Assembly (NCBI RefSeq): GCF_001592745.1
Contig: NZ_LUKD01000008.1
Coordinates: 487,545-551,544, forward strand
Length of the DNA stretch: 64,000 nt
Source: Bdellovibrio bacteriovorus
Lineage (GTDB): Bacteria; Bdellovibrionota; Bdellovibrionia; Bdellovibrionales; Bdellovibrionaceae
Direction of reading: 5' to 3'
Of this stretch, positions 21,943-37,500 are shown in pieces. The notes beneath the pieces are model-generated. The model ran no database searches. It saw nothing but the letters and a program-made list of their open reading frames with translations, and was not told the origin of the DNA. The stretch's first letter is position 1, and every line of letters starts with the position of its first letter. The position numbers and the translations under genes were made by a program.

Positions 21943-22467
21943 TTACGGAACGCAAAAATCTTCTCTGAAGGCGACCTTACGTACGGAACTTAAGGGAATA
22001 TCCACGACTCCTTCGAGTACGGGTTCTCCCGCACTTGTAGAGTTTAGGACTGATTTCGGACGCAGGCTGTAATAGATACGAAGGCTGGTCTCTGGATTGA
22101 CTGCGGAGTTTCCACAGGCAGACCCAATACATGAAAATGAAGTGACCGCTTCATACTCACAATTTTTTTTACAGTAACGTCCTGTAGTATCGTAGACTCT
22201 TTTGCCACTGATGAGGACATCCCGTTCATCATACAGTGAAAAGGGCTTTATAACATTCGGAGCGCAGTTCTTTTTACCGCAAACACAGTGAGCAATCGCC
22301 TTATTTAAACGCACAGATCTAAAAAGAGACCTAGCATTAGCTGCGTTGGACACGACGATTTTTTCGAGGCCTCGTATATGTTCAATTTTGGAACTTCCCT
22401 GAGCGAAACCTGGGATCACAAACATCGTCGTCAATAAAAGTTTTTGAAAGAGGCTGATTCGGATCAT
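21943..22467 (-). CDS. Small Cys-rich exported protein
   Basis: The 174-residue product has a signal peptide (cleavage near AQG-SS). The mature part has clustered Cys: HCVCGKKNC, YCKKNCEYEA, SFSCIGSACG and a C-terminal FCVP. Even numbers of Cys suggest disulfide bonds. I recognise no family. A GTTCT-N9-AGAAC site lies 53 bases upstream, and a possible promoter (TTGAAG-17-CATATT on the minus strand) lies between. The gene follows a TIGR02147 regulator on the same strand. Confidence 0.75.
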   Translation of the reverse strand: MIRISLFQKLLLTTMFVIPGFAQGSSKIEHIRGLEKIVVSNAANARSLFRSVRLNKAIAHCVCGKKNCAPNVIKPFSLYDERDVLISGKRVYDTTGRYCKKNCEYEAVTSFSCIGSACGNSAVNPETSLRIYYSLRPKSVLNSTSAGEPVLEGVVDIPLSSVRKVAFREDFCVP

Positions 22468-22519
22468 TTCAACTTATCGGAGAATATGTCCAAATCTTAA
22501 TGTCACTTCAAAAATAGGT

Positions 22520-22538
22520 GTTCTGAAGAATGTAGAAC
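22520..22538. promoter_or_regulatory. GTTCT-N9-AGAAC site, copy 1
   Basis: Perfect five-base arms around nine bases. It is placed upstream of the Cys-rich exported protein gene and directly behind the stop of a TIGR02147 regulator gene. It is one of six related sites in 22-34 kb. Confidence 0.65.
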
Positions 22539-22544
22539 GACGAG

Positions 22545-23327
22545 CTAATCGGAAAGACTGACAGTCTCGACCTTTTTAGTCATGGGAGTGAATCCGATGT
22601 TAAGAACGTACACCTCGTCTTTCGGAACGTTGAGGCGGCTTAAATACTCGTGACATTCCTGTACGAATTCGACGGCCTTGGTTTGTATGTAATCCATGTC
22701 TTCGCTAGAGCAGGCAATGACCATATTGCTCCAAAAGCGCTCATGTGGAGGCCGCTTTGTGAAAGAGTCTTGGGCTTTCTGTAAATACTCTGTAGCCGTC
22801 TTTATCATGATAGTGCGGCTTGTTTCGTCGGCGACTTTAATACAGTTTTTATTTGTAGAGATGATTTTGTTGAACTGATTTCTCTTAAGCTCATTAATGT
22901 TAAGAAGGTCGTTCAGGGCTTTTTGCGCTTCCTCCGGCGATATTCCTATGCGTGCGGAGATCCACTCGGCATTATCATTAAAATCTTCTGTCGAGGTTAA
23001 TTCGAGAATAACATAGTGATACCACGAAGAAGCTATGGACGTCAGCTCGTTCGTGGCCACGCAAAAATTAGAGAAGGGTGGCAGCGGGCTTTCTAATATC
23101 TCCAAAAAATCAGCATCGCCTTCAAGGGCGATCTTTAGTTTCGCGATCGTCTTTTTGGAAAGTTTTCTTTTGCCACGCAACGTCTCGTTGAGTGTCGATG
23201 CCGACAATCCTATTTTAGTGGCAAAGGCCCGTTGTGAAAATCGTGGATTTTTTTTCTTTTTGTTTTCGATGACCTGAACCAGATATTCTTTGATGTCGTA
23301 CTGCAAGAGTTGTTTCCACTTACTCAT
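22545..23327 (-). CDS. TIGR02147-family regulator
   Basis: The 260-residue product has an N-terminal HTH (about 22-65: NPRFSQRAFATKIGLSASTLNETLRGKRKLSKKT). It then carries the TIGR02147 C-terminal domain, with WYHYVILELTSTEDF near 100 and the PKDEVYVLNIGFTPMTK ending. The family is abundant in Fibrobacter and Bdellovibrio; its members are presumed DNA-binding regulators. It is closely similar to the gene at 33765 (FSQRAFA, GKR.LSKK). The upstream region 23328-23467 contains GTTCT and AGAAC half-sites 18 bases apart instead of 9. Confidence 0.88.
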   Translation of the reverse strand: MSKWKQLLQYDIKEYLVQVIENKKKKNPRFSQRAFATKIGLSASTLNETLRGKRKLSKKTIAKLKIALEGDADFLEILESPLPPFSNFCVATNELTSIASSWYHYVILELTSTEDFNDNAEWISARIGISPEEAQKALNDLLNINELKRNQFNKIISTNKNCIKVADETSRTIMIKTATEYLQKAQDSFTKRPPHERFWSNMVIACSSEDMDYIQTKAVEFVQECHEYLSRLNVPKDEVYVLNIGFTPMTKKVETVSLSD

Positions 23328-23467
23328 TCTGTGTCTCCCAAGATGCCCACACCAAAATTCTTATAGCTTTTCAGGGTGATTTTCCAGAGACGACGGGCAG
23401 TAATTGTTCTGCCTTTTTTTTTAAATAGAGAACGCTAAAAATCTATAATTGCGCAGAACCTTCTTCT

Positions 23468-23806
23468 TCAATTGAAAACCGACAGCGTTTTTAATGCCGC
23501 TGCTTTTTTCTCGGGATCAATCTTTCGCATGTCTTTTGGAGGTGCTTCTAGGGGAGCGGATTGGCTCACCGAAGCAGATGCTTCCTGGGACGTAAAGGTG
23601 GAGGCTGAAGTTGAAGACTGTGTTCTGGCTTCAGGTCCTTTATTGGGCTCTGGCACGTGAGACTGAGGCTGAGACGACTTCAATTCCTCAACATCTGGCA
23701 GAACCGCAGTTTCTGCCGTGACACTTGTTGATTTTTCTTTCAGGTGTTTTGCGATCACCAAGAAAACCGCCAGACTCAAGGTGAGAATAACGAATTTGTT
23801 TTTCAT
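23468..23806 (-). CDS. Small membrane-anchored Ser/Pro-rich protein
   Basis: The 112-residue product has an N-terminal TM segment (FVILTLSLAVFLVIAKHL). A low-complexity Ser/Thr/Pro/Ala linker follows, and it ends PEKKAAALKTLSVFN. It begins 15 bases after the collagen-like prepilin gene and has the site GAAGGCATCC before its ATG. It is probably the last gene of the pilin operon. No family is recognised. Confidence 0.68.
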   Translation of the reverse strand: MKNKFVILTLSLAVFLVIAKHLKEKSTSVTAETAVLPDVEELKSSQPQSHVPEPNKGPEARTQSSTSASTFTSQEASASVSQSAPLEAPPKDMRKIDPEKKAAALKTLSVFN

Positions 23807-23820
23807 ACGGATGCCTTCAT

Positions 23821-25644
23821 TTATTTTTTCTTTGGTGGATTATCGCGAAAATATGAAAACCACACATCAAACATCAAGTGATAGTTGCCGTCCGTTGTTT
23901 TGACAACGGACTTCAATGTGGTTTCATTGCCATATTTGTCCACCTCTTTAAAGTTTGGATCTGCATTAAGATCGATAACTTCCACCTTCATCTGCTTGAG
24001 TGTGAACAGTTCGTGCTTCTGGGCGACGCCGTCAAAGTTTTCATCGTGCCACAGGCGAAGTTTGTGATAAATGGGATCTTCAATAGTGATATAAGTATCT
24101 GCGGGACCAAGGAGCGTTTTCGCATCGACGCTTGTTCCGTCATACTTCGCTAAGGCCTTATATCCGTCTTTGGCAAATTTGCCGTCGGGTCCTAATGTAT
24201 TGTCTCCGAAGAGTTCATCAATACCGCGCACTTCACCCGCGTTATTGGGTTTCACTAGGAAATAATATTGAGGCGATCGGTACCAGGAAATTCGTTTCGG
24301 AGAGTAAGGTGGTGATGAGTTCATTCCAAGTATGTCGAAGGTGATTCCATCTTCGTGCGATGTAAATACAAGTGGCTCTGCCTTCTGTACATTCGAACCA
24401 AATTGCACCATGAGCGGTGATCCTGCTTCGTAGCAATAGCGGTAAGAAAATCCGGCGCCTGGTCCCGTTAATTGTCCGTTGGTGCAAGTTGCAGGCGCTG
24501 AAGAGGCGACGCCACAACGAGGGGCTCCGTAAAGTTCGACAGTTTCTCCGTCTTCCAGCGCATAACCACCGACGACGCAAGGTTGCGGCGGCGCCGTTCG
24601 ACATTGTGTAGCCCCATAGGAACCTGTCAGAACTCCGTTAATACATGTTCTAGTTTCACTTTGGCAGTTTTGTCCAAAAGGCACGGTTTCAGATGCATAA
24701 AGCGTGATGCTTTGGCCGTCACTCAGCGTTTGGCCATTCAAAGAACAAAGCGCTCCCGGCGAAGCAATAGGATGCGGAGATGGTTTTCCAGATATGATGA
24801 TGCCACCTTCTCCGCCAGAACCGGGACCATTTCCGCCTCCGTTGCCACCAGTGTTTAAGAAAATGGTAGACCCATTGCTGCCCGCAGGACCGCGCGGACC
24901 TTGGGCTCCGGTGGCACCTCGAGCCCCCATGGCTCCTTGAGGGCCCGTAGGCCCGGTGAATGCGATCAGAGGAAGACATCCAGTTGAATCCGCTGTGAAT
25001 GTCTTTCCGTCGCCATCAGTGACGGAGTTTTTAAAACCTACAAAGACCTTTCCCGCTTTTGCGCAAGTGGCTGTTGGTGAAAGGTTGTCACCGAGGTTTG
25101 TTCTTGCTCTTGGCAGGACGTTAAAGGCATTTAAATTAATTTGTTCGGGACCGCCGTATTTGAAATTGATTTCAATTTTTTCTTCTGGATATTGGCATGT
25201 TGTCGCCGAAGTACAATGTACGGACCAGATAATTTCCGCCTGATAAAGACAGGATGTGTTGGGCGTTCCGAAGTTGTCACAAACAGAGCCGTCCGGATTA
25301 AAACCTTGTTGTTGTTTCCCTGGGTCGGTCAGTCTAAGGCCGTCACCGTTAACTAAAATGATTTTAGCTTTCGTGTCATTGGCGCAGCTCGCCGGATAAG
25401 TTTGAATACATGCCATTGCGGGATTTTGCGCAATTGTTTTATCCCAAGAATACTGCTGACTAATCGTCGACATTAAGTTTGCTGAAATGGTACTGAAAGC
25501 TGATTTTCTAGCATTCAAAATCGACATCTTTTGAAAATGTGTCGCCGCTACCATAGAAGCACTGACGATGGCCCCTAATGCACCCAGAGCCACTAAAGTT
25601 TCGACCACAGTAAAGCCTTTTGTATTCGAACCTGGTGTCGTCAT
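23821..25644 (-). CDS. Prepilin-like protein with collagen-like repeat
   Basis: The start is ATG 25644 behind GAGG. The 607-residue product opens with a type IV prepilin signal: NTKG|FTVVETLVALGALG, with Glu at +5. A globular part follows, which shares CAKAGKVFVGFKN with the neighbouring pilin. Next come exactly nine Gly-X-Y triplets (GPTGPQGAMGARGAT...) at about 230-260 and a Gly-rich linker. Cys-containing NGxxLxDG modules (about 290-400) come next. An EF-hand-like loop DENFDGVAQKHE lies near 550. It is probably assembled or secreted by a type IV pilus/type II-like system; a minor pilin with an exposed tip is inferred. Confidence 0.82.
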   Translation of the reverse strand: MTTPGSNTKGFTVVETLVALGALGAIVSASMVAATHFQKMSILNARKSAFSTISANLMSTISQQYSWDKTIAQNPAMACIQTYPASCANDTKAKIILVNGDGLRLTDPGKQQQGFNPDGSVCDNFGTPNTSCLYQAEIIWSVHCTSATTCQYPEEKIEINFKYGGPEQINLNAFNVLPRARTNLGDNLSPTATCAKAGKVFVGFKNSVTDGDGKTFTADSTGCLPLIAFTGPTGPQGAMGARGATGAQGPRGPAGSNGSTIFLNTGGNGGGNGPGSGGEGGIIISGKPSPHPIASPGALCSLNGQTLSDGQSITLYASETVPFGQNCQSETRTCINGVLTGSYGATQCRTAPPQPCVVGGYALEDGETVELYGAPRCGVASSAPATCTNGQLTGPGAGFSYRYCYEAGSPLMVQFGSNVQKAEPLVFTSHEDGITFDILGMNSSPPYSPKRISWYRSPQYYFLVKPNNAGEVRGIDELFGDNTLGPDGKFAKDGYKALAKYDGTSVDAKTLLGPADTYITIEDPIYHKLRLWHDENFDGVAQKHELFTLKQMKVEVIDLNADPNFKEVDKYGNETTLKSVVKTTDGNYHLMFDVWFSYFRDNPPKKK

Positions 25645-25672
25645 ATAAGACCTCGAATCTTGGTAGTGTAAC

Positions 25673-26479
25673 TTACGGACAATACGCATCCGCCCCATTG
25701 TAACCTTGAGGGCCCATCATGCCGGTGGCTCCCATCGGCCCCGTGGGACCTGTCGGACCTTGAGGCCCGCGAGGTCCCAGGAACGCAGCATAGGATATGC
25801 AACCTTCGCCATCGGAGGTTTGTCCGTTAAATACATTTTTTTCGCCAATGAAAATCATGCCTTTGCGGGCACAGATAAGAACAGGGGAGTCGTTTCCGCC
25901 AAATTGTCCACGGCTTTGTTCCACGACGTTGTAGTTAGCAGGATTGAAGGGGAACTTATTCTCTTTTGAGTGCGGGGTGTATACAAAGTGTATACTGATG
26001 TAGTCTTCAAAAGAAGAGCAGGTGCTGTTTGCGCACTGAGCTCGCCACTTTAAAGAGACGTGCAGAGGACATGAGTCATCGCCCGCCGAAGAGTAAGTGT
26101 CACATCGTGTTCCATCCATGCGATATCCTGCAGAAGGAATAGCGCTATCATATATAATCGTTCCTTCCGCATCATATAAAGCGATATTCAAGCGCTCTGT
26201 TTCGCCTGGCGTGCAGAATTTCTGAGAAGACGAAACGCATTTCATTTGCGCATTCTTTGCCCGGGTCATCATCCAGGATGAGTCAGAGGTGATCGCTGAC
26301 AATAGGGAATTGCGAATGTGAAGGACGTTGTCCTTGAAGCGCACTTCCTTCTGAACAGCTTGTTGATTCAACAGTGTTGTCACTGTCGCCATTCCCGAAA
26401 TACTCAAGATGGTGCCCACCAAAAGCACACTGATGATGCTAAAACCTTTTTGATTCGAGAGAGCTGAAATGAAGTTCAT
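25673..26479 (-). CDS. Prepilin-like protein with C-terminal collagen-like repeat
   Basis: The start is ATG 26479; the longer frame adds 68 residues with no hydrophobic logic and covers regulatory sites. The 268-residue product opens NQKG|FSIISVLLVGTILS, a prepilin signal with Ser in place of Glu at +5. Its middle domain resembles the next gene (CARKGMIFIGEKN, then GCISYAAFLG). It ends in nine Gly-X-Y triplets (GPRGPQGPTGPTGPMGAT...) and a short Cys-containing tail. The two prepilin genes lie 28 bases apart and form an operon. Confidence 0.8.
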   Translation of the reverse strand: MNFISALSNQKGFSIISVLLVGTILSISGMATVTTLLNQQAVQKEVRFKDNVLHIRNSLLSAITSDSSWMMTRAKNAQMKCVSSSQKFCTPGETERLNIALYDAEGTIIYDSAIPSAGYRMDGTRCDTYSSAGDDSCPLHVSLKWRAQCANSTCSSFEDYISIHFVYTPHSKENKFPFNPANYNVVEQSRGQFGGNDSPVLICARKGMIFIGEKNVFNGQTSDGEGCISYAAFLGPRGPQGPTGPTGPMGATGMMGPQGYNGADAYCP

Positions 26480-26532
26480 ACCAATATATCGGTGGTAAAA
26501 AATGCAGTCTTTAGAAATCCTCACAACGAAGT

Positions 26533-26550
26533 GTTCTATCTTTTTAGAAC
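26533..26550. promoter_or_regulatory. GTTCT-N8-AGAAC site, copy 2
   Basis: The arms are perfect but the spacer is eight bases, one shorter than the other copies. It lies in the 194-base divergent region between the prepilin operon and the lipoprotein pair. Confidence 0.5.
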
Positions 26551-26582
26551 AAGCAGGTCTGCGCTTGTCGAAGAGTTCACTC

Positions 26583-26601
26583 GTTCTAAAAATACCAGAA
26601 C
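26583..26601. promoter_or_regulatory. GTTCT-N9-AGAAC site, copy 3
   Basis: Perfect arms with a nine-base spacer, 50 bases from copy 2 in the same divergent region. It is 72 bases upstream of the lipoprotein start at 26674. Confidence 0.65.
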
Positions 26602-26673
26602 ACATAGTCGAGTTTTCCAGTTTATTCGCAAGAATCAAGAGCCGATAAGTCCACACATTCCAAAGGGGGAATA

Positions 26674-27690
26674 ATGAAACCATTGAATATGGGTAGGTAT
26701 CTCGTCGGAGTTACGGTGGGCAGTTTATGTGTGCTCGCCTTTCAAAACTGCGTGCCACAATCTGGATTTCAAACGGATCAAGGTACTTTCAGTTCCCAGT
26801 CAAGCATGGGAAGTAGTAACGGAAGTAACAATCTCGGTAGAACTGGAATCGTGCAAACATCTGGGACGGATACCTCCAATAGTGGTGGTTTGTATGCCCC
26901 TCCCAAGCAACTTTTTTTTACAGACCTTTCAGTCGGTGACGGCTCGACGATTCAAAGAGTGAAGCAAACATTGATCGGCGTCGGGGGACCCAACCTGCGT
27001 GGTTGCACCGCTTTACTTTCGGAATCACATATTTATTGTGTGAAGGACACTGACTATCGCCTTGTAGGTGGAGCGGGTGACAAGCAGTGGAGTTATAATG
27101 CAGGAACGGATACTTACTCTGCTGATTTCACCGTCTCCGGATGGCCTCATGCTGACTATATCACACGCTACATTTTACCTGATGGCACACGCTCTGAGGT
27201 CCGCTTTAGACCGATTCTTTTTAGAGATTCGTCTTCAGGTAACGGCTCTTACTTAACTCGCGTGGTGCAAGTCTTAAGTGGTGTGGGGGGTGCAGGATTG
27301 CGTGGATGTACGGCGCTTATGTCAAATTATAATGTTTATTGTTTAAAAGACTCCGAGTTCCGTGTTGTTGGCGGCAGTGATGATAAACAGTGGTCTTACA
27401 ATCCTTCCACAGACACTTACTCGGCAAACTTTGATGTCACTAATTGGGGCTGGCCACATCAAGAATACTTTACTCGTTACATTCTCCCTAACGGAAATCG
27501 GTTGGAAATTCGTTTCTATCCTGGGCGCACTTACACGGCCGGCCCGGCGCCTTATTCGGGACCTAAATGGGTGATGACCGTAGAAAAAGCATGTCTTGGT
27601 CCTACGCCGGCACCGGCTCCGATTGGTCAAGCTTGTTCTGTACGAGGTCAAACTCTAAGTAATGCTTGTGGTACGGCGACTTGCCAATAG
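26674..27690 (+). CDS. Lipoprotein with two tandem domains
   Basis: ATG 26674 follows AAAGGGGGA. The 338-residue product has a signal peptide ending LAFQNC, a lipobox style shared with the next gene. Two direct repeats of about 105 residues fill the rest. Each has the order LRGCTAL, (I/V)YC(V/L)KD, (R/V)VGG, DKQWSYN, TDTYSA(D/N)F, WPH, TRYILP(D/N)G and (V/I)RF.P. The conserved Cys pair in each repeat suggests a disulfide. The family is not recognised. It is divergent from the collagen-like prepilins and shares their regulatory region, so a joint surface role is possible. Confidence 0.78.
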   Translation: MKPLNMGRYLVGVTVGSLCVLAFQNCVPQSGFQTDQGTFSSQSSMGSSNGSNNLGRTGIVQTSGTDTSNSGGLYAPPKQLFFTDLSVGDGSTIQRVKQTLIGVGGPNLRGCTALLSESHIYCVKDTDYRLVGGAGDKQWSYNAGTDTYSADFTVSGWPHADYITRYILPDGTRSEVRFRPILFRDSSSGNGSYLTRVVQVLSGVGGAGLRGCTALMSNYNVYCLKDSEFRVVGGSDDKQWSYNPSTDTYSANFDVTNWGWPHQEYFTRYILPNGNRLEIRFYPGRTYTAGPAPYSGPKWVMTVEKACLGPTPAPAPIGQACSVRGQTLSNACGTATCQ

Positions 27691-27709
27691 AAACTTCGAG
27701 GGGGATGTT

Positions 27710-28840
27710 ATGAACTTATGTAAAATTAAAATAGCGTCAGTCGGCACAATCTGTACTTCCTTTTTAGTTTTGGGTTTTCAAAACTGTTCGGGCACGCAAT
27801 TTACGGCTGCAGAGACCGAAGCTTTAAATCTGAAAAGAGTGAGTTCGACGGAAATGAATTCTTCCGAGCCAACTTCATCGTCGGCCAAGATTGATTTGGT
27901 GACTCCGCGAATCGTGTTATCAGATCAATATGACGGAGAAGCAAAGCCCTCTTTTTCTCCTAAAAAAATCGTCTATGGAACTGTTTACGGTTTAAGCGAT
28001 AAAAACGTGCATGTGTGCATGGGAAGCTATTATGGTTGTGAGTATTGGCCGGGATATCGACAGGCGATGTCCACGGTCGCGCATTACAGTAAACCTGTAG
28101 AACAACTTCCCAACTGGCGGTATCAGGTTTCGGATAGGACGTGGAGATTCACATTAGATTACAGTGAGGTCGGCGACGTCCTTGACAAGGTCGTTGTGCA
28201 TGAAATGGTTCCGGATTCAGAAACAGACTTTGTTTTCTTCAATGGTCCTAGTGCCGGAGTTCGCCTAAGACTTGAAGCTATGATTTCAGTTCGTTCCGAA
28301 CTGCACGATGCGGGAATTTACTTCAATGCTTGGGGGCGTGATACGGTTTCTTCGATCACGCAAGATTCTTACGGCAGTAAGATCTTCACGCGAAATTCGG
28401 GATTGAGTTCATTAAATCAGACCTTCTCGCACATTGCGGGGCTTGGTCCTAACGTGGGCGTCTGTCATGAAAAAGTGGGGAGTGGTCGTTGCAGCTCTGT
28501 GAACAACTACATGCCTGCTCAGAATCTGGGCCGCTATAGCACGGTTCGAGGTCTTTGGCAGATCAACAACTCAGGTTTGAAACTGGATTCGTTGGGCGCA
28601 GTGGGTGGCAAATATGCTATGTATGCCAGGGACGCCTCAACCGGAACCACAGTGAGCAGTGAATTCTATCTGAATCCACCGTCAATTCGTTGTTACTATG
28701 CTTCAACGACGCCAGTTCTGGGGCCTTGTTCGGATCCAGAAACAAGTCAGAATCAATGCACGCAGTCCAACGTAGGTCAAACACTGCAGGGAACGGGAAG
28801 TTGCAAAGCGAAGTACACTTGCGCTTGCACAAGCTCGTAA
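27710..28840 (+). CDS. Lipoprotein, function unknown
   Basis: The start is ATG 27710 behind GAGGGGGA; the longer frame begins inside the previous gene. The 376-residue product has a signal peptide ending LGFQNC. The mature region is Ser- and aromatic-rich, with FSPKKIVYGTVYGLSDKNVHVC and WRYQVSDRTWRFTLDYSEV, and a Cys-rich end (QCTQSNVGQTLQGTG...CACTSS). It lies 19 bases after the tandem-domain lipoprotein, forming a two-gene operon with a terminator after it. No family is recognised. Confidence 0.75.
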   Translation: MNLCKIKIASVGTICTSFLVLGFQNCSGTQFTAAETEALNLKRVSSTEMNSSEPTSSSAKIDLVTPRIVLSDQYDGEAKPSFSPKKIVYGTVYGLSDKNVHVCMGSYYGCEYWPGYRQAMSTVAHYSKPVEQLPNWRYQVSDRTWRFTLDYSEVGDVLDKVVVHEMVPDSETDFVFFNGPSAGVRLRLEAMISVRSELHDAGIYFNAWGRDTVSSITQDSYGSKIFTRNSGLSSLNQTFSHIAGLGPNVGVCHEKVGSGRCSSVNNYMPAQNLGRYSTVRGLWQINNSGLKLDSLGAVGGKYAMYARDASTGTTVSSEFYLNPPSIRCYYASTTPVLGPCSDPETSQNQCTQSNVGQTLQGTGSCKAKYTCACTSS

Positions 28841-28863
28841 AAGAAAAAACAAATAGAAAAAGA

Positions 28864-28892
28864 AAAAGCCTCGGTAAGAACCGGGGCTTTTT
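28864..28892 (+). terminator. Rho-independent terminator
   Basis: AAGCCTCGGT, AAGA loop, ACCGGGGCTT (one U-G pair), then a T-run. Confidence 0.9.
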
Positions 28893-28919
28893 TTATTGTC
28901 TGTAGTACCTAAAAGTCTT

Positions 28920-28938
28920 GTTCTAGAATAACCAGAAC
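28920..28938. promoter_or_regulatory. GTTCT-N9-AGAAC site, copy 4
   Basis: Perfect arms, nine-base spacer, 82 bases upstream of the S74 fibre gene start. It lies downstream of the preceding terminator, so it belongs to the fibre gene. Confidence 0.65.
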
Positions 28939-29020
28939 GGAAACTCTGTAAAATATTAAAGGCCATATTGAGAGCACAACGTGCAACGCCGAATAGTTCA
29001 TCAAACATTAGGAGTTGTAA

Positions 29021-32000
29021 ATGCTTTCACGTCTGTTGTTAAATCATCTCCTTTATCTTTTTTTATCCGCAGTGGTATTGCCTGCCTACGCTGTCGGTCC
29101 CGTAGCTTCAACCGGTTCCTTGACTTATCAAGGTCGTATTCTTCGTTCTGACGGAACGCCGTTTGAAAATAAAAATGTCTCTTTCGTGTTTCAGATTCTC
29201 GATCCCGGTGGGCAATGTGTGATTTATCAAGAGCAAGTGAACGGCATTAACATGGAAAACTCAAAAGGTGTTTTTGATGTTCCTATTGGTACCGGATCCG
29301 TTCAATACATCACGGGTCTTGGTGCCTCCACCGTGGTTGATATTTTCAATAATGATTCCGGAATGGGATATTTCTGTGGAGCCTGTTCTAGTTCGGGAAG
29401 TTCCTATAATTGTTCTGCAACGACAACACCTTATCATCCAATAGCTACGGCCGGCCGTTTATTGCGAGTGGCTTTTTATGACGGCACGGGATGGAAGACG
29501 GTGACACCCGATAATGAAATCCGCACGGTGCCTTATGCGGGTTATGCGACATCGGCTCAAAAGCTCGGAAAAAATTCCGTGAATGATTTCGTTCTAAAAA
29601 ATGAAATCAATAACTCCGGAGCGGGAAGTGTGAACTGCGATAGTGGCAGCTTTTTGACTTGGGATGCAAATACCATGAAGTTCGGCTGTGGCAGTGTCTC
29701 GGGTGCTTCCGGCGGTACGGTAACGAGTGTCCTGACTGGAGCTGGATTAACCGGAGGGCCAATCACTGATAGTGGAACAATCTCACTAAGCACCTCTGGA
29801 GTGACCGCCGGCACTTATGGTTCGGCAATACATATGCCCGTCATTGAAGTGGATTCTTATGGTCGTGTGATCAACGCCAGTCAAACTTCTATCACCGGTT
29901 TTGTTCCGTACTCGAGTTTGCCAGCGTGCAATTCAGCGGCGCATACACTTTCATTTATTTCTCCCATTGGAGGTTTTAGTTGTACACCTATTTCCATCAC
30001 TCTTTCGGGCGATGTCAGTGGGTCGCAAGGCACGGCCGTAGTGGAAGGGTTGCAAGGAACGCCGGTGGCTTCCTCGGCTCCCACCAACAATCAAGTTTTA
30101 CAATTTGATGGAGCTCAGTGGAAGCCCACCACTCTTTCATTAGCGGCTTCAGATTTAACTTCTTTGTCGGGAACCGGGATTGTGAAGCGAACTGGGGCTT
30201 CTGCTTTTACGACACTCGGAGTGAGTGCTCCGCTTGTTGATTTAGGAACTAGCATCGGTCTTTCTCTCAGCACAGGTTTAAAGTTGAATTCCAACAGTCT
30301 TGCGGTGGATGTGGGTACGGGGGCTAATCAGATTCCACAACTTGATGGTTCAGGAAAAATCAGCACGTCGGTGATTCCCTCCGGTGTAAGCTCACAGTGG
30401 ATGACTTCGGGTTCGAACGTCTCTTATAGTGGAGGCAATGTGGCCGTAGGAACTCCCAGTCCCACACGCCGTTTTGAAGTGTATGCGGCGAATAGCTCGT
30501 TCCGTCCTTTTGGACTAAGAACAAGTGACTATGTTTCTGGTACTAGCGGAACTGGTTTTGACGTCGATTTCGGGGCCGCCTCTGGAAATACTTATGTGCA
30601 ATTGAACGCCATTCACACAGGCGGAACAGCTGCGACAAATCTAGTTCTTCAACCGACAGCGGGAAATGTGGGAATTGGTACCATTTATCCTGCAAGCTCA
30701 TTGCACGTCAAATCCTCGGGGCAAGTAGTAACCACCTTCGAATCGACCGATGCCAATTATATGGGGATTCACCTGAAGTCAGGTTCTACAACAAATCCAC
30801 CTTCGATCTATGCGAGTGGCAATGGCATGTCCTTGTATACCATGGGTACGGAGCGAGTGGGTCTGCATTCTAACGGTAACGTCATTCTTGCAACGGCGGC
30901 AGGAAGCGTCGGTATAGGCACACCAAACCCTCAAGGGACGCTGCATGTTGCTTCAGGCAATGTTTATTTTGGCGATGCTCTTACGCCGACACCCAGTGTG
31001 CAAACGAAGATGACGGTTGTTGATTCAAATCCTATCATCACTGTGGCGGCCAGCAATGCGGCGGGCTCTGCCGGCATCGAGTTTCAACCCAAGGGAACGG
31101 GGTTATTAGGGGGGCAGTACAAGATTTTTGGTTCACCTTCAGCAGGACCTTACGGGAACGGATTGATTTTCGAACTTGGCAATTTAGGTACGATGGGTGG
31201 TGGCCAATTCGTCATGCGGCTTGACTCCAACGGCTACTTGTCTTTAGGACAAGGCTTAGCAATGGAGTCGGCGGCGGCAAGGCTCCATGTTAAAGGAATT
31301 GGCGCCTTAGTTGATCCTTCGCCTTTTGGTTCTAATCCGTCAGGAACTGTTCAGCGAATCGAAGGCACTAATACTGTCCTTGATGCAGGTTTCTCGACAA
31401 CTGAAAATCCATGGCTTCAGGCTCGCACTAAAACTGATTATTCTCTTAGCAAGGCTCTTTTATTAAATCCTGCAGGTGGAAACGTGGGAATTGGAACGGT
31501 AGCCCCTGCTTATGCGCTTCATGTTGCCGGCGCTTCCGGGGCCACCGTAGGATTTTTCACAGACGGCACTGCAAGTTGTTCGATCCGTCCTGCCACGGCC
31601 GGAAGTGTGAGCTGTTCTTCTGACGAAAGGCTTAAGAAGAACGTCACAGGCTTTTCAGATGCCACATCATTAGAGAATATTTTAAAACTGAACACAGTTA
31701 CATACGAATGGAGAAGTGTGAATAATGGTCGTCACACGGGGTATATCGCACAGGAAGTGGAAAAAATTGCTCCTGAATTCGTGACAACAGGAAATGACGG
31801 CTACAAGCAAGTCAGTTACTCAGGCTTTATTCCTTGGATTACCGGAGCTATTAAAGAGCTTAATAAAAAACTTATGCTTGGAATGGCTTCTAAGGCCGAC
31901 AAAGAGATGGTAGAAAATAAAATCCAAACACTGGAGCTAGAGGTTCTGGCAAAAGATCTTAAGATAAAAATGCTTGAAGAAGAAAATCTTCAGATCAAAG

Positions 32001-32041
32001 CGCGCCTTGAGAAAATTGAAAAGGCTCTTGGCGCGAGATAA
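29021..32041 (+). CDS. Secreted fibre protein with C-terminal S74 self-cleaving chaperone domain
   Basis: The 1006-residue product has a signal peptide (cleavage near AYA-VG). Its N-terminal domain (LTYQGRILRSDGTPFENKNV, then NSKGVFDVPIG) matches the fibre at 676-2616. The long middle region contains NVGIGTxxPxxxLHV units typical of fibre shafts (near 545, 630 and 825). The C-terminal domain, from about residue 865, has the S74 cleavage signature SSDERLKKNV, then YIAQEVEKIAPE. A coiled coil ends the protein. S74 domains trimerise fibres and cut themselves off. No other phage genes are nearby, so a cellular fibre is inferred. Ribosome-binding site is TAGGAG. Confidence 0.87.
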   Translation: MLSRLLLNHLLYLFLSAVVLPAYAVGPVASTGSLTYQGRILRSDGTPFENKNVSFVFQILDPGGQCVIYQEQVNGINMENSKGVFDVPIGTGSVQYITGLGASTVVDIFNNDSGMGYFCGACSSSGSSYNCSATTTPYHPIATAGRLLRVAFYDGTGWKTVTPDNEIRTVPYAGYATSAQKLGKNSVNDFVLKNEINNSGAGSVNCDSGSFLTWDANTMKFGCGSVSGASGGTVTSVLTGAGLTGGPITDSGTISLSTSGVTAGTYGSAIHMPVIEVDSYGRVINASQTSITGFVPYSSLPACNSAAHTLSFISPIGGFSCTPISITLSGDVSGSQGTAVVEGLQGTPVASSAPTNNQVLQFDGAQWKPTTLSLAASDLTSLSGTGIVKRTGASAFTTLGVSAPLVDLGTSIGLSLSTGLKLNSNSLAVDVGTGANQIPQLDGSGKISTSVIPSGVSSQWMTSGSNVSYSGGNVAVGTPSPTRRFEVYAANSSFRPFGLRTSDYVSGTSGTGFDVDFGAASGNTYVQLNAIHTGGTAATNLVLQPTAGNVGIGTIYPASSLHVKSSGQVVTTFESTDANYMGIHLKSGSTTNPPSIYASGNGMSLYTMGTERVGLHSNGNVILATAAGSVGIGTPNPQGTLHVASGNVYFGDALTPTPSVQTKMTVVDSNPIITVAASNAAGSAGIEFQPKGTGLLGGQYKIFGSPSAGPYGNGLIFELGNLGTMGGGQFVMRLDSNGYLSLGQGLAMESAAARLHVKGIGALVDPSPFGSNPSGTVQRIEGTNTVLDAGFSTTENPWLQARTKTDYSLSKALLLNPAGGNVGIGTVAPAYALHVAGASGATVGFFTDGTASCSIRPATAGSVSCSSDERLKKNVTGFSDATSLENILKLNTVTYEWRSVNNGRHTGYIAQEVEKIAPEFVTTGNDGYKQVSYSGFIPWITGAIKELNKKLMLGMASKADKEMVENKIQTLELEVLAKDLKIKMLEEENLQIKARLEKIEKALGAR

Positions 32042-32042
32042 C

Positions 32043-32720
32043 CTATTTCTCTAAAAGGATTTTTTTAATCTGAGCGTACTTCTGACGAGTCAATGCCGAC
32101 GTCGAAAGAATATAAGAAGAGTAATAACGAACATTTTCCGAAGACGAGATATTCGGGGTGATTTGCAAAGCTCGCTTGTAAACGACTTCGTGAATTAGTA
32201 GCGCGACCCTATCGGCTAGACTGAGTTGAATCCATAGCGGCTTAGAAATGAAGTAACTCGAATCATTCTTAAACTGCGAAACATGCTGCACGGCCAGTTG
32301 TTTCAGCTCACAACCTTGCGGGATAAATCCAATGCCGGCGTCCGTTGTCGGGAAAAGTTCTCCATCAATAAACTGCGCCTCCGTTACAAAACGGTGCAGA
32401 AGTCTTTCAAGTTCGGTCACAAAGACAGGATCAAAAGGTTTGACCCTTTGGAGGCTTTCAAGTGCCAGGTCGATGCTTTTTGATAAACAAGGAACAAGGA
32501 TTTCCCACCCTTCCACTTCTGGAATATGGCAGACAGAGAGATTCATGTCCTTTAAGTACGGAATAAGCATATAACGCTGAACAGATTCATAAGTGTCATA
32601 GAACTGAACGGTCTTTGCTGCTGGGCACACGATTCCTTTTCCGCCATTTCCGAATTCTGTAGAGCGAGCCGCACTGAATGAAAGGAAGAAGAATGTTGTT
32701 AAAAATAGAAATGATTTCAT
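32043..32720 (-). CDS. Exported protein with N-terminal NGGxGxxC motif
   Basis: The start is ATG 32720, whose A is shared with the stop of the upstream regulator gene (TGATG); the frame can be extended one codon to a TTG. The 225-residue product has a signal peptide ending near ARS-TE, then FGNGGKGIVC. The rest is helical and contains ALLIHEVVYKRAL, which looks like an HExx motif but lacks the second His of HExxH. It is translationally coupled to a TIGR02147 regulator. Function is unknown. Confidence 0.75.
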   Translation of the reverse strand: MKSFLFLTTFFFLSFSAARSTEFGNGGKGIVCPAAKTVQFYDTYESVQRYMLIPYLKDMNLSVCHIPEVEGWEILVPCLSKSIDLALESLQRVKPFDPVFVTELERLLHRFVTEAQFIDGELFPTTDAGIGFIPQGCELKQLAVQHVSQFKNDSSYFISKPLWIQLSLADRVALLIHEVVYKRALQITPNISSSENVRYYSSYILSTSALTRQKYAQIKKILLEK

Positions 32721-33478
32721 CAATGATTCCTTGAATGAGTCAAAGGATAGATCTGCAAACAGATACTGTAGACTTCAGTTTTTTCACCTTGCTCTAGAAT
32801 TTCATTAGCTTGACGGCGGAATTCACGAGCTAGCATTTTAACCTTATAAATATTTTTCGGATTCGACGGAATAACGATCGACGTGATATCGCGTACGTCA
32901 ATAGGATCGCGGATAAGTGACTCACGTGCCTTATCGATCAATTGGTGGTGCATGTTCTTTAGAGCCTCAGAAGGTATATCACTCGTCGAAGTTAAATTTG
33001 TGTAAGTGGGACGGAGGCCTTGTGGTGTTTCGTGAATCAGTCCGGCTTGAAGAAGCTTTGCGTAAGAGTCTTTGACTAATTCAGGAGAGAGATTCAGGCG
33101 TTCTGCTACCACATCAGGATCGCTGTCGAAGTGAAGGGTGTCCATGGCATTTAGAATGGCAAAATGATACCACTCGCGAATGAAAAAAATCTCGCTTTCT
33201 TGAAGCTGGTGCGCGCGTCGAGTGTCCTTCTTTTGGTGTTTCGATTTTTGTACTAAGTAGGCTAAATAAGCGGCTTCGTTTTTATTGAGCTTCAACGCGA
33301 CTTCAATTCTCTGAATAACTCTTTTACCTGGTAGAACTTTGCCGCGCATAATGTTAGAGACGCGACTCGGAGAAACACCTAAATCACGAGCTAAAGCACG
33401 CATTGAGTATTGAGGATTTCTAAAGCGTCTTTCCTCTAATACTTTTGTTATAAGATCAGCGACTTCCCGGTATTTCAT
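32720..33478 (-). CDS. TIGR02147-family regulator
   Basis: The start is placed at ATG 33478 (MKYREVADLITKVLEERRF), which aligns with the paralogues; the longer frame uses TTG at 33523. The product of 252 residues has an HTH at about 25-60 (MRALARDLGVSPSRVSNIMRGKVLPGK) and the TIGR02147 domain, with EWYHFAILNAMDTL near 105. It is divergent from another TIGR02147 gene across a region with two palindromic sites. It is coupled to the exported-protein gene downstream. Confidence 0.87.
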   Translation of the reverse strand: MKYREVADLITKVLEERRFRNPQYSMRALARDLGVSPSRVSNIMRGKVLPGKRVIQRIEVALKLNKNEAAYLAYLVQKSKHQKKDTRRAHQLQESEIFFIREWYHFAILNAMDTLHFDSDPDVVAERLNLSPELVKDSYAKLLQAGLIHETPQGLRPTYTNLTSTSDIPSEALKNMHHQLIDKARESLIRDPIDVRDITSIVIPSNPKNIYKVKMLAREFRRQANEILEQGEKTEVYSICLQIYPLTHSRNH

Positions 33479-33564
33479 TCGCGGAAAACTACGGAGAATT
33501 GACGAATTTATCAAGAGCTTCAAGAATCATTTTGAAAAGTTCTCCGCAGGTCTATTCACAAACT

Positions 33565-33583
33565 GTTCTGAAAAAAACAGAAT
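33565..33583. promoter_or_regulatory. TTCT-N9-AGAA site, copy 5
   Basis: GTTCT-N9-AGAAT, with an A-tract spacer. It lies 87 bases upstream of the minus-strand TIGR02147 start at 33478. Confidence 0.55.
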
Positions 33584-33668
33584 ATCGCGAGTGCTGTTCG
33601 GAAGCGTGCGGAGAAATGTCGTACGCATTTTGCAGGCGAAACAACGCTGGTGTCATTCTGTCGAATTT

Positions 33669-33687
33669 GTTCTAAAAAAAGCAGAAC
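33669..33687. promoter_or_regulatory. GTTCT-N9-AGAAC site, copy 6
   Basis: Perfect arms with an A7 spacer like copy 5. It lies 78 bases upstream of the plus-strand TIGR02147 start. Copies 5 and 6 are about 104 bases apart, close to ten helical turns. Confidence 0.65.
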
Positions 33688-33764: not shown

Positions 33765-34514
33765 GTGCTGGAAGAATTTGGGGGAATATTGGAAAGCCTT
33801 TTCGATTTACATGAAGTGGATGTTAGAGAGTGCCTTAAAAAACTTATCGATATTAAGAAAAACCGAAACAGACGTTTCTCGCAGAGGGCATTCGCTATTC
33901 AATTAGGGTTTACTTCTTCAACGTTCAATGAAATTTTGACGGGTAAGCGCAACCTCTCTAAAAAAAGCATTAATAAAATCAAACTGGGCCTAGGAAAAGA
34001 TCCGGACATAAAAAAATATCTGTATGAAAGTGCGAAAGTTTCTTTGTCACAGCGCTGGTACTATGATGCTTTTCTTGAACTGGTTGCGACGGAAGGTTTT
34101 GAAGAAATCCCATCATGGATTGCCGGCAGATTGGGAATCAGTGAAGAACAGGCCCGATTCGGACTTGAAGAACTTGAGCAAAATGGAACGCTCACCAGAA
34201 ATACGTCCGGCTGTCTAGTACACGCAGAAGGCTTGCGCCGCCGGGCGCACTTGCGACTTGTTAAAAATCCGCAAACCGAAGATCTTGCGAAATTATCTCA
34301 AGCTGTTACGGCCCCACAGTCGAATGAGCAGTTCTATGGAACTCTTGTGATGGCTATTGATCCGAATGATTTTGAATACATTCGTGCTCGGGTCATGGAT
34401 GTCATGAAGGAGCACAGCGATTTCTTGTGTCGCGATGGAGTTAAAAAACAAGAAGTCTATCTTCTTAGTTTTGGATGTATGCCGTTAACCAAAAAAGTTT
34501 CTTCTTCGAAGTAA
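33765..34514 (+). CDS. TIGR02147-family regulator
   Basis: The frame starts at GTG 33765; no ATG is available before the conserved region, and the ribosome-binding site is weak. The 249-residue product has an HTH at about 36-80 (RRFSQRAFAIQLGFTSSTFNEILTGKRNLSKKS), close to that of the 22545 gene. The TIGR02147 domain follows: RWYYDAFLELVATEGF and KQEVYLLSFGCMPLTKK. It is divergent from a second family member and convergent with the giant RCC1 lipoprotein gene. Confidence 0.85.
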   Translation: MLEEFGGILESLFDLHEVDVRECLKKLIDIKKNRNRRFSQRAFAIQLGFTSSTFNEILTGKRNLSKKSINKIKLGLGKDPDIKKYLYESAKVSLSQRWYYDAFLELVATEGFEEIPSWIAGRLGISEEQARFGLEELEQNGTLTRNTSGCLVHAEGLRRRAHLRLVKNPQTEDLAKLSQAVTAPQSNEQFYGTLVMAIDPNDFEYIRARVMDVMKEHSDFLCRDGVKKQEVYLLSFGCMPLTKKVSSSK

Positions 34515-34580: not shown

Positions 34581-37500
34581 TTAATTCGGGAACGGTCCCA
34601 CTGAAACCGGCGCTAGACGGAATGGTTTCTTGTTCGTACCTAATTGACCTTGGGTATCTGCACCAGAGCAGTACCAATTCGTACCTACTTTACCGCAAGA
34701 TCCATAGCCATTTCTGATATCAAAATCTGTGACCGTACCATAAGCGTTCAGCGTTGTCAGAAGGGTCGGCGATAAGTGATATTCATTGGTCAAGTAATCA
34801 TTATTTCCGTGCTGGTCAAAGCGATTGTATCCCCAGCAGGAAACTGCGCCATTAGCGATGACACAATGATTTGTATATCCGCTCACCAATTTATTGATAT
34901 TTGTAAATGTATGTTCTACCGGAGCAGCTACGGCATTTCCGGTGCTGCCATTTCCTGATTGCTGACCGAAGCATCTCACTGTCGACGTTCCAAAGCGTGC
35001 ACATGTTCCGTAACTCGACATCGCTAATTCATCTGCATTTAAGAACGCAGGAACTTGCACCAAGCCTGGTCTTAACGTCGTATCACCCAATCCAAGCTGG
35101 CCTTGAGCATTGTAGCCTGAGCACCAAACGGATTTGTCGGTTTTGATTACGCATGCGTGAAAGCGACCGAAAACAATTTTACTGTTATCACTTCCTGCTG
35201 ATGTGATCTCAACTGGGTTTGTATAAAGTCCCATAGCCATGTCAAAAATCTCGGAAGTTGCTAAATTACCCCAACAGAAAAGTTTTCCACCTTTAATCGC
35301 ACAGGCAAAATCATTGCCCATCGAAATGGCGAAGTCAGTCACACCTGATGTCAGACCTGCCGGTGTATTCGGATTTCCCGAAGTCGAAGTACTGGCTCGA
35401 ATATACGAGCGTCCCCAGCATTTCAGAACACCTAGTTGAATCGCACAACCACCGCTAGGCGCTGTCATCATTTTACCAATATTACTTTCCAGCGTTTTGA
35501 TAGAAGTTGGAACTAGATACATTCGATCTGCTAAAATATTTCCGGCTTTGTTATGGATGTTGTCGCCCATGCATTTGACCCCGCCACCATAAACACCGCA
35601 GGCATGTTCGTCGAAAATAGAAATAGCGCTGGCACCTACAAAGTCAGGACTCAGATAAAAACCATTTGATTGCAGAACTTGCTGATCTCCCAACTGACCG
35701 AAACCTGAAAAACCAGTGCAATAGATTTGACCAGATCGTATGAAACAAGTGTGGGCCCCCGGGCTGCCTGCGATAGCCGTCACATTCGCGGATCCACCGA
35801 CGACCGGCGAAAGTGGAATGATAGAAGTTCCCGTGGGTTGATTAATACCGCCTTCACCGAAGTAGTTGCGACCGCGGCAGTGAGCCTGTCCGCCCATCAC
35901 AACGCAAGTTTGCACACCAATCGTCATATCTGTGAGATTGACGTACTCGCTCATCAGAGTAGGGGTCGGCACATCAGCACTTAAGCCAGTGACAATCTGG
36001 TAGTCGCCGTTGTTACCCCAACAATAAACTTGATTGGATGAGTTCTTAGCGCAGGTGCCATAATAGCCCGTCCAGAAGTCTGTCACAGTGCCAAGGCCAG
36101 GAACTGCAGAAATACTCCAGCTAGGATTGAAGTGGCCTAAGCCCAATTCTCCATTCGTATTTACGCCCCAGCAATAAAGGGCTCCGGTTTTCAATGCGCA
36201 GGCATGTGTCCAGCCCATCATGACTTTACCAACTCCGGAAGTAAGACCCGCAATACTCACCGGAACTGCCGATGACGAAGCCGTCGACGGATCTCCCAAT
36301 ATTCCAAAATCTTTAGCACCCCAGCAATAAACTCCTCCGTCTTTGACGGCACAAGAGTTCATATAACCTATACTCACCGAAGTGACTCCAGAAGACATTC
36401 CTGTTACTAAAGTTGCGGTTGAGCGAGTTGTAAGACTTCCGTTACCCAAAAGGCCGGCCCCCGGGTAGTTGTTATGAGCTCCCACGCCTGCACAGTAAAG
36501 GGCTCCTGCATTCGTGATGGCGCAGGTGATGGATGAGCGAGTCGATATTTTAACTGCGGGCGCGGGGAGAGTGAATTCCACAGGTGTCGATGAAGCGATG
36601 TAATTGCCTCGGCCCAGTTGGCCTGAATTATTAATACCCCAGCAATAGACTTTTCCACTGCTAGTCCGTGCACAAGTGTGATTGTCGGCAGCGTGAACTT
36701 CGACAGCGTCTTTTCCGGCAGGTGAGTCGTTGTCATTGATGATAATGTCTGCATTTGAAATATACGAAGTACCACCAGTGATACCGGTAATTTTGATAGG
36801 AACACGCTTAAAGAGTTCATCAACGGCATTGTCTAAACTTGTCAGACTTCCAAATGATATCGTCGTCGCGCCTGATGGAATGGAAGCCGTGCCTGACGTG
36901 GTGGCCATTGTATAATCGGTGCCCGCTGCCGCGCAGTCGACTCCTGTACACGTGTCGCGAGTCCAATTAATGGCAACCGCCCCCTTGTCCGTTGGATGTG
37001 ATAGTGTCGCGATCAAACTTGTTGTTGCGCCCTCAGTAACATAAACGTCTTGGATCGTGACTAAAGGTGGTTCTTCGTCATCCGTGATTGTCACGGTGTG
37101 AACTGTGTTAGTTCCCAAAGAGCCACCGACAGGCGAACTTAAGGTCATTTTGAAAGTTTCGTCATTTTCTTCCGTACTGTTATCTAAAATCGGAATAGAA
37201 ATATTTACGGAAGTGCTTCCAGCAGCAATCGTCGCTGTCCCGTTTGTCGCGGTGTAATCGCTCCCCATCGTCGCCGTGGGCGCTGAACCGTTAGAGTAAG
37301 TGTAGCTGACACTGACAGCGATATCGACCGCTGCAGGAATGCTGACGGCGACAGTGTGCGTGGGATCGTTGTATTCAGAAATACTGGAGGTCGTACTTGT
37401 AAATTGAATCGCTGGCGAATTTTTTGTCCACGTCGCTGTCGTTGCCGCCGCATAGGTCTGCCAATTTCCAGCGGCATCTTTGCCGACAACGCAAAGTTTT

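Follow-up and report, generated by a model that had tools for sequence, protein, structure and literature searches.

An island of adhesion genes and TIGR02147 regulators

The window (the whole stretch of 64,000 nucleotides that was analysed) contains an island in which genes for prepilin-like proteins, lipoproteins, an adhesive fibre and other exported proteins lie together with the genes of three TIGR02147 regulators, P1, P2 and P3 (Table 1). The Cys-rich exported protein is related to the prepilins of an island in another genome of the genus, with 29 % identity to L092:4295-5371 by BLASTP (E 3.9e-18). The second gene of the prepilin operon encodes a GXY run of 30 residues, and the first gives partial prepilin (NF007660) and PF01391 matches, both under the cut-off. 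An ORF that seemingly spans the two operators upstream of this operon is over-extended, and the prepilin start was read from the sequence at about 26479. The first of the two lipoproteins has a 36 % identical relative that is likewise under an operator in the G007b island (see below). The 29021-32041 product scored 191.1 bits for the N-terminal domain of mosaic adhesive trimer (MAT) fibres (NF053851, cut-off 60) and 56.3 bits for PF13884 at its C-terminus, and is a member of the Bdellovibrio MAT family (PMC10769870). There are 23 MAT genes in this genome, one of which is tied to the island operator; this link to a specific operator is an addition to the MAT study, in which a term search of the text found no promoter or operon analysis of these genes.

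All three regulators exceeded the curated cut-offs for TIGR02147 (Fsuc_second, 50 bits; P1 98.3, P2 97.5 and P3 68.1) and for the gathering score of PF14394 (DUF4423, 30 bits; P1 97.8, P2 135.8 and P3 63.4), and this family is numerous in these bacteria, with about 15 genes in this genome. An AlphaFold model of P1 (mean pLDDT 84) confidently places an Xre-type HTH, a winged helix and long C-terminal helices. Foldseek returned no structural match for P1 at E 0.001, and the best match on a second look, 4g6q_B (Z 7.9, rmsd 5.3 over 152 residues), is within the usual background, so that these fold searches give no information on a ligand or partner. The literature searched contained no paper that mentions TIGR02147 by name and no account of what members of the TIGR02147/DUF4423 family bind or control; one paper in it does no more than list a DUF4423 protein, Bd3700.

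Table 1. Predicted genes, operators and promoters of the island, in window coordinates
Feature	Position	Strand	Remarks
Cys-rich exported protein	21943..22467	-	Related to prepilins of G007b island
FliA/sigma28-like promoter TTAAG-N15-CCGATA	22475..22500	-	11/11; -10 start 49 bp from 22520 operator centre
Operator GTTCTGAAGAATGTAGAAC	22520..22538	.	Perfect N9; upstream of 21943-22467 gene; fits refined pattern
Regulator P1, TIGR02147/DUF4423	22545..23327	-	Xre-type HTH, winged helix, C-terminal helices; likely operator binder, from sequence
Prepilin-like protein, collagen-like GXY tract	23821..25698	-	Operon gene 2; 31-32 % identity to other island prepilins
Prepilin-like protein, collagen-like tract	25673..26479	-	Operon gene 1; start read from sequence
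FliA-like promoter TAAAG-N16-CCGATA	26487..26513	-	Prepilin operon; -10 start 49 bp from 26533 operator centre
Operator GTTCTATCTTTTTAGAAC	26533..26550	.	8-base spacer; serves prepilin operon
Operator GTTCTAAAAATACCAGAAC	26583..26601	.	Perfect N9; serves divergent lipoproteins
FliA-like promoter, -10 GCCGATAA	26621..26647	+	Weak -35; -10 start 50 bp from 26583 operator centre
Two FQNC-type lipoproteins	26674-27690, 27662-28840	+	Divergent from prepilin operon
Operator GTTCTAGAATAACCAGAAC	28920..28938	.	Perfect N9; upstream of MAT fibre gene
Weak FliA-like promoter TTGAG-N16-CCGAAT	28968..28994	+	-10 start 60 bp from 28920 operator centre, one turn further
MAT fibre, C-terminal Peptidase_S74 chaperone domain	29021..32041	+	NF053851, PF13884
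Exported protein, GNGGKGIVC motif	32043..32723	-	Paired with P2; 62 % identical partner beside P2 relative in G007b
Regulator P2, TIGR02147	32720..33523	-	Different recognition helix; probable target, not operator reader
Operator GTTCTGAAAAAAACAGAAT	33565..33583	.	One mismatch, ends AGAAT; upstream of P2
Operator GTTCTAAAAAAAGCAGAAC	33669..33687	.	Perfect N9; upstream of P3
Regulator P3, TIGR02147/DUF4423	33765..34514	+	P1-type HTH; likely operator binder, from sequence

A palindrome clustered in the islands

An earlier note on this DNA had reported six copies of an inverted repeat, GTTCT-N9-AGAAC, all upstream of genes, and each was present where it had been placed, as four perfect copies with a nine-base spacer, one with an eight-base spacer and one ending in AGAAT. 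A pattern search of the whole genome (3,755,232 bases) returned only 10 perfect copies, of which four are grouped in an 11.2 kb part of the window, each in a promoter region, and the remaining six are within ORFs of 182-1006 aa. Given so few copies genome-wide, about 0.03 would be expected in 11.2 kb (binomial about 2e-8). Allowing up to one mismatch, the window held nine matches against 2.6 expected, a number reached by none of 100 shuffles. Across the genome the motif was not enriched (10 copies compared to 18 for the reversed control); it is therefore strictly local, and the refuting test worded in the note, on promoter frequency genome-wide, would have been misleading for a regulon confined to an island.

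A de novo dyad search ranked GTTCT with a spacer of 8-9 as the top recurrent intergenic dyad in the island, and at 11 other TIGR02147 loci and nine control regions of the same genome (runs of N in two of these regions were disregarded) comparable dyads recurred at most twice, which equals shuffles. The refined pattern, GTTCTRNWNNNWNYAGAAC, was found at four sites in this genome (G000) and nine in a second genome of the genus (G007), all inside islands, whereas 64 further genomes of the family had no more than two sites apiece. One-mismatch matches in the window at 5387, 30504, 31329 and 58857 did not fit this pattern and resemble chance matches. The best reading of the palindrome, based on sequence, is that GTTCT-R-(AT-rich)-Y-AGAAC, of 19 bp and sometimes 18, is the predicted operator of a private regulon.

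G007 carries two related islands, which encode the nearest relatives of the island regulators and hold 10 perfect copies of GTTCT-N9-AGAAC at promoters of both related and unrelated genes. Among 141 genomes of the order, the clade of P1 and P3 comprised six proteins (>340 bits, with the next best at 156) from three genomes only, namely G000, G007 and G009, and a scan of named genomes beyond the genus turned up nothing more than short HTH matches to unrelated proteins. The motif tracks this clade across genomes and is located at the regulators' own promoters, with no perfect site directly upstream of P1 in the window. In G009, where the P1-type regulator (L093:9735-10511) is more diverged, an island of the same type with similar promoters carries another palindrome of the same geometry, TGTGTT-N9/10-AACACA, and all four exact genome copies of it are in the island. 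Clade co-occurrence, the sites at regulator promoters and the replacement palindrome of G009 together lend good support to the proposal, made from the sequence, that the repeat is a dimeric operator serving a local regulon of TIGR02147 proteins.

Operator spacing to FliA-type promoters

The published consensus for the Bdellovibrio attack-phase FliA promoter is TTAAG-N16-CCGATA (PMC3627812). Promoters of this type accompany part of the operator-gene pairs of the islands, and two in the window matched at 11/11 positions, with spacers of 15 and 16. At least 9/11 positions matched in 11 of 36 island promoters, compared to a mean of 1.1 and a maximum of 4 in shuffles; one such promoter (9/11) lies 59 bp from the P3 operator. 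The distance from operator centre to -10 start was 49-51 bp in nine of the 36 pairs and 59-61 bp in six, two distances that differ by one helical turn, and this total of 15 was significant (P<0.001; 1000 permutations peaked at 7). In an unbiased 4-mer scan, CCGA placed 48-52 bp away from operator centres gave the strongest signal among all words and offsets, exceeding all 100 register-destroying nulls. Between the prepilin operon and the divergent lipoproteins there is one operator per promoter, at 49-50 bp and outside the -35/-10 elements. The -35 is weak in several of the target promoters, and about 20 of the 36 pairs had no recognisable FliA promoter at either distance. When the operator register was ignored, FliA-like promoters around island gene starts showed only a weak excess (8/48 compared to 14/216); the signal emerges only on alignment to the operator. 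In this genome and in relatives, CCGATA promoters in the neighbourhood of other TIGR02147 genes showed no enrichment of palindromes some 49 bp upstream.

The fixed spacing, which the note does not mention, suggests a mechanism. If transcription starts 6 bp beyond the -10 octamer, a distance taken from PMC2859248, the operators would be centred at about -62 to -64 and -72 to -74. Both positions fit a class-I arrangement, with the activator near -61.5 or displaced upstream by whole turns, always on the same helix face, as in CRP promoters of the lac type, although those use sigma70 rather than sigma28 and a global rather than island-private regulator of an unrelated protein family. The E. coli aer and trg promoters are a parallel in that a dimeric activator, CRP, acts upstream of a sigma28 promoter, as proposed here; however, activation of aer was best at -49.5, a position that the island operators do not occupy, and a site at -61.5 had no sigma28-dependent activity (PMC2859248). 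A site at -62 or -72 used with sigma28 holoenzyme is consequently without exact precedent in E. coli. The attack-phase FliA regulon (PMC3627812) likewise has TTAAG/TAAAG-N15-17-CCGATA-like promoters before surface-protein genes; the island adds a second, island-specific site at a fixed helical distance upstream. No such upstream site is described in the passages of that paper that were consulted, which suggest that more specific regulators exist.

Proposed mechanism and alternatives

We consider it probable that P1/P3-type dimers bind the operators and activate attack-phase FliA promoters of the adhesion island. Dimers encoded by the same island would bind the 18-19 bp palindrome upstream of the -35, separated from the -10 by five or six helical turns, and would probably recruit FliA-RNA polymerase in the manner of a class-I activator. 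The predicted targets are the prepilin-like proteins with collagen-like tracts, the lipoproteins, the one MAT fibre and the regulators themselves, and production of this adhesion set in the attack phase would require permission from the regulator. Counterevidence lies in the operator-gene pairs that have no recognisable FliA promoter, in the P1 gene of the window with no perfect site just upstream, and in the E. coli result for sigma28 at -61.5.

An unlikely alternative is that the same proteins bind the same regulon but repress its FliA promoters, so that the island would stay off until a signal lifts the repression. The HTH, which is of the Xre type, closely resembles those of antitoxins and repressors such as HigA, many of which repress, and operators at the regulators' own promoters would suit autorepression, but the sites lie upstream of the -35 rather than over the promoter, two positions one turn apart are typical of activation, and the weak -35 elements also argue against repression.

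It is less likely still that the operator is real and is read by P2 or by a DNA-binding protein encoded elsewhere. P2 has close relatives (66-67 % identity) in both motif-bearing genomes, G000 and G007, and in each of them an operator lies upstream of the P2 gene too; however, the G007a island encodes regulators of the P1 and P3 types and no P2, the P2-type protein of the G009 island is distant (31 %), and the predicted base-contacting residues of P2 are SPSRVSN compared to SASTLNE in P1. Of the DNA-binding proteins that were recognised, the P1-type regulator alone occurs in every one of the four islands, which counts against other readers. The suggestion in the note that the TIGR02147 proteins themselves bind the repeat thus holds, as a likely assignment, for P1 and P3, whereas P2 is probably a target of the regulon.

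Finally, short five-base arms and the ease with which A/T-rich intergenic DNA yields dyads might favour chance repeats, terminators, RNA hairpins or leftovers of mobile repeats, but this reading, already unlikely from the sequence comparisons, is very improbable given the enrichment above shuffles and control regions, the recurrence at promoters of related and unrelated genes in G007, the fixed distance to promoter elements and the substitution of another palindrome in G009.

A wider proposal, which we regard as evenly balanced, is that P1/P3-type TIGR02147 proteins are dedicated class-I sigma28 activators, with an operator code private to each island that changes with its regulator, so that interchangeable, separately switched surface sets would sit atop a common attack-phase programme.

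In summary, the operator, regulon and promoter geometry proposed here for a TIGR02147/DUF4423 clade would be the first testable set of its kind, and connect this family with the attack-phase sigma factor and with genes for adhesion, among them that of a MAT fibre of a type that serves in prey recognition. The apparent natural shift in specificity from one sister species to another provides a direct route to mapping residues onto the bases that they read. If the private operator codes are true, these predators would possess interchangeable surface sets, each separately switched, through GTTCT-AGAAC in two species and TGTGTT-AACACA in a third.

Copies of the putative operator and the genes downstream of them

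All six copies of the inverted repeat GTTCT-N9-AGAAC described in the earlier note were recovered at their positions and with their spacers, each located in a promoter region (see table). The open reading frame that seemingly spans the copies at 26533 and 26583 was drawn too long, as the prepilin start lies at ~26479. The proposed target set, namely the Cys-rich protein, collagen-like prepilins, lipoproteins, S74 fibre and divergent TIGR02147 regulators, was likewise found in full under the sites, and the regulators P1, P2 and P3 each scored above the TIGR02147 and DUF4423 cut-offs.

Features of the island in the window and of related loci
Feature	Position	Remarks
Perfect GTTCT-N9-AGAAC	22520, 26583, 28920, 33669	promoter regions
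Copy with N8 spacer	26533	promoter region
Copy ending AGAAT	33565	promoter region
Cys-rich exported protein		operator-associated; akin to sister-island prepilins, E 3.9e-18
Regulator P1	22545-23327	between Cys-rich gene and prepilin operon
Operon of two prepilin-like proteins		operator-associated; collagen-like tracts
Two FQNC-type lipoproteins	26674-28840	operator-associated
MAT fibre protein		operator-associated; NF053851, 191 bits; Peptidase_S74 domain at C-terminal end
Regulators P2 and P3	32720-33523, 33765-34514	divergent pair; operator-associated
TGTGTT-N9/10-AACACA (G009:C6)	L093:9619-9640	about nine more places in L093 and L098
MAT/TIGR02147 neighbourhoods (G000)	C9:51258-51993, C1:802943-804287, C8:182171-186749, C8:316131-323258	

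The genome scan that the earlier note had proposed showed no genome-wide enrichment: the pattern search returned 10 perfect copies in 3,755,232 bases of this genome (G000) against 18 for a reversed control pattern. Four of the 10 fall inside 11.2 kb of the window (C8:487545-551544), where ~0.03 would be expected, and the remaining six are all within open reading frames of 182-1006 aa. When intergenic DNA was screened without bias for dyads that recur, GTTCT came first in the island. Nothing comparable turned up in nine control regions or around 11 further TIGR02147 loci, if runs of N in two of these places are disregarded.

Just upstream of P1, at 23406-23433, GTTCT-N18-AGAAC combines the same arms with one additional helical turn, and may be either chance or a stretched operator. 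The island is adjoined by a lipoprotein-like surface protein of 2579 residues (34581-42320), upstream of which no operator was recognised.

Sister islands and a second palindrome

Among 60 relatives, the closest P3 homologues were found in two genomes of the same genus, G007 and G009. G007 carries two islands, G007a (~2.868 Mb) and G007b (~1.21 Mb), which hold 10 of the 23 perfect N8 or N9 copies in its 3.6 Mb. These island sites precede regulators, prepilins, lipoproteins, a PknB-like kinase and one MAT gene, the last with two sites upstream, a perfect one at 126 bp and one with a single mismatch at 84 bp. The spacers of the island sites are alike: R stands beside the left arm, Y beside the right one, and the middle is rich in A/T. 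A pattern refined in this way, GTTCTRNWNNNWNYAGAAC, gave four matches in G000 and nine in G007, all within islands, and at most two per genome in 64 other family genomes; the G000 and G007 counts are partly built in, because the pattern was derived from those very sites, and the informative part is the contrast with the rest of both genomes and with the other genomes.

The single G009 island encodes a P1-type regulator (38% identity to P1), prepilins, lipoproteins, a kinase and giant surface proteins. No GTTCT site was found at its promoters, where the recurrent palindrome is TGTGTT-N9/10-AACACA with a mostly A/T-rich middle. The G009 genome has four exact copies, each of them inside the island; other genomes of the genus have three at most.

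Several further observations concern the islands' proteins. The unusual FQNC lipobox is common to lipoproteins of all four islands (window 26674-28840; loci L090-L093, L097 and L098), and exported proteins of very large size are also encoded in the islands of G007 and G009. One more P3-like regulator of G007, its third (L090:18109-18591, 160 aa), retains its helix-turn-helix, lacks part of DUF4423 and appears to carry an internal deletion. Two small related proteins (L090:16475-16792 in G007a and L098:8586-8966 in G009; 44% identity), each downstream of an operator, look by eye like KH-type RNA-binding proteins.

Promoter geometry

The published Bdellovibrio attack-phase promoter, TTAAG-N16-CCGATA, is ascribed to FliA (PMC3627812). 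At the Cys-rich gene the corresponding sequence reads TTAAG-N15-CCGATA, and at the prepilin operon TAAAG-N16-CCGATA; our scoring allowed TAAAG as well as TTAAG, with spacers of 15-17. Across the four islands, 11 of 36 operator-gene pairs, which we assigned ourselves and of which several sites carry one mismatch, matched at 9/11 or better (200 shuffles: mean 1.1, maximum 4). At 8/11 or better, nine pairs lay 49-51 bp and six 59-61 bp from the operator centre, compared with at most three in any three-base bin outside both peaks and at most seven in any bin of 1000 random re-registrations; the scoring bins were picked after inspecting promoter matches, and the permutation and a 4-mer scan cover all offsets. 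That scan, which uses no promoter model, placed CCGA at 48-52 bp first over all words and offsets, above all 100 register-destroying controls. The divergent region 26479-26674 has one operator per promoter, at 49-50 bp, and the weaker MAT fibre promoter (TTGAG-N16-CCGAAT) lies at 60 bp. In more than half of the pairs, no clear FliA promoter stands at either peak distance. G009 sites occur in both peaks despite their different palindrome, which supports these palindromes as equivalent sites. The FliA-type promoters, together with the MAT family and the abundance of TIGR02147 genes, also make Bdellovibrio the probable source of the genome.

At E. coli aer, transcription was mapped to begin 6 bp past the -10 octamer (PMC2859248); with the same distance here, operator centres would fall around -62 to -64 or -72 to -74. 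These two positions, one helical turn apart and both upstream of -35, suggest that the bound protein contacts RNA polymerase from one DNA face, by analogy with class-I activators. At the sigma28 promoter of aer, however, CRP is effective at -49.5 and ineffective at -61.5 (PMC2859248), so the island arrangement would be no copy of aer. Repression by the bound protein is possible and ranks second to such activation.

Candidate regulators

A P1/P3-type profile run against 141 genomes of the order detected six proteins above 340 bits, confined to G000, G007 and G009, and the next scored 156 bits. The P1 type was the sole DNA-binding protein recognised in all four islands, and sites are present at the promoters of several P1/P3-type regulators. 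Since, in addition, divergence of the regulator goes with a different palindrome, these proteins are, from sequence comparison, the best candidates for reading the operator. P2 is a less likely reader, as it is missing from one motif-bearing island and its recognition helix differs.

The predicted model of P1 (mean pLDDT 84) comprises an N-terminal Xre-type helix-turn-helix, a winged-helix domain and long C-terminal helices; its sequence profile matched HigA-like and other Xre helix-turn-helix proteins and winged helices among solved structures, and fold searches gave no match above background. Compared with the five regulators of GTTCT islands, the G009 protein changes R to S at P1 position 29, A to D at 34, F to L at 35 and S/T to A at 42. 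These residues, in and ahead of the helix-turn-helix, are candidates for setting operator specificity.

Of the 23 MAT fibre genes in the genome, several have a TIGR02147 gene from outside the window as an immediate neighbour or at a distance of no more than 7 kb. The association of a MAT fibre with a TIGR02147 regulator may be a general pairing.
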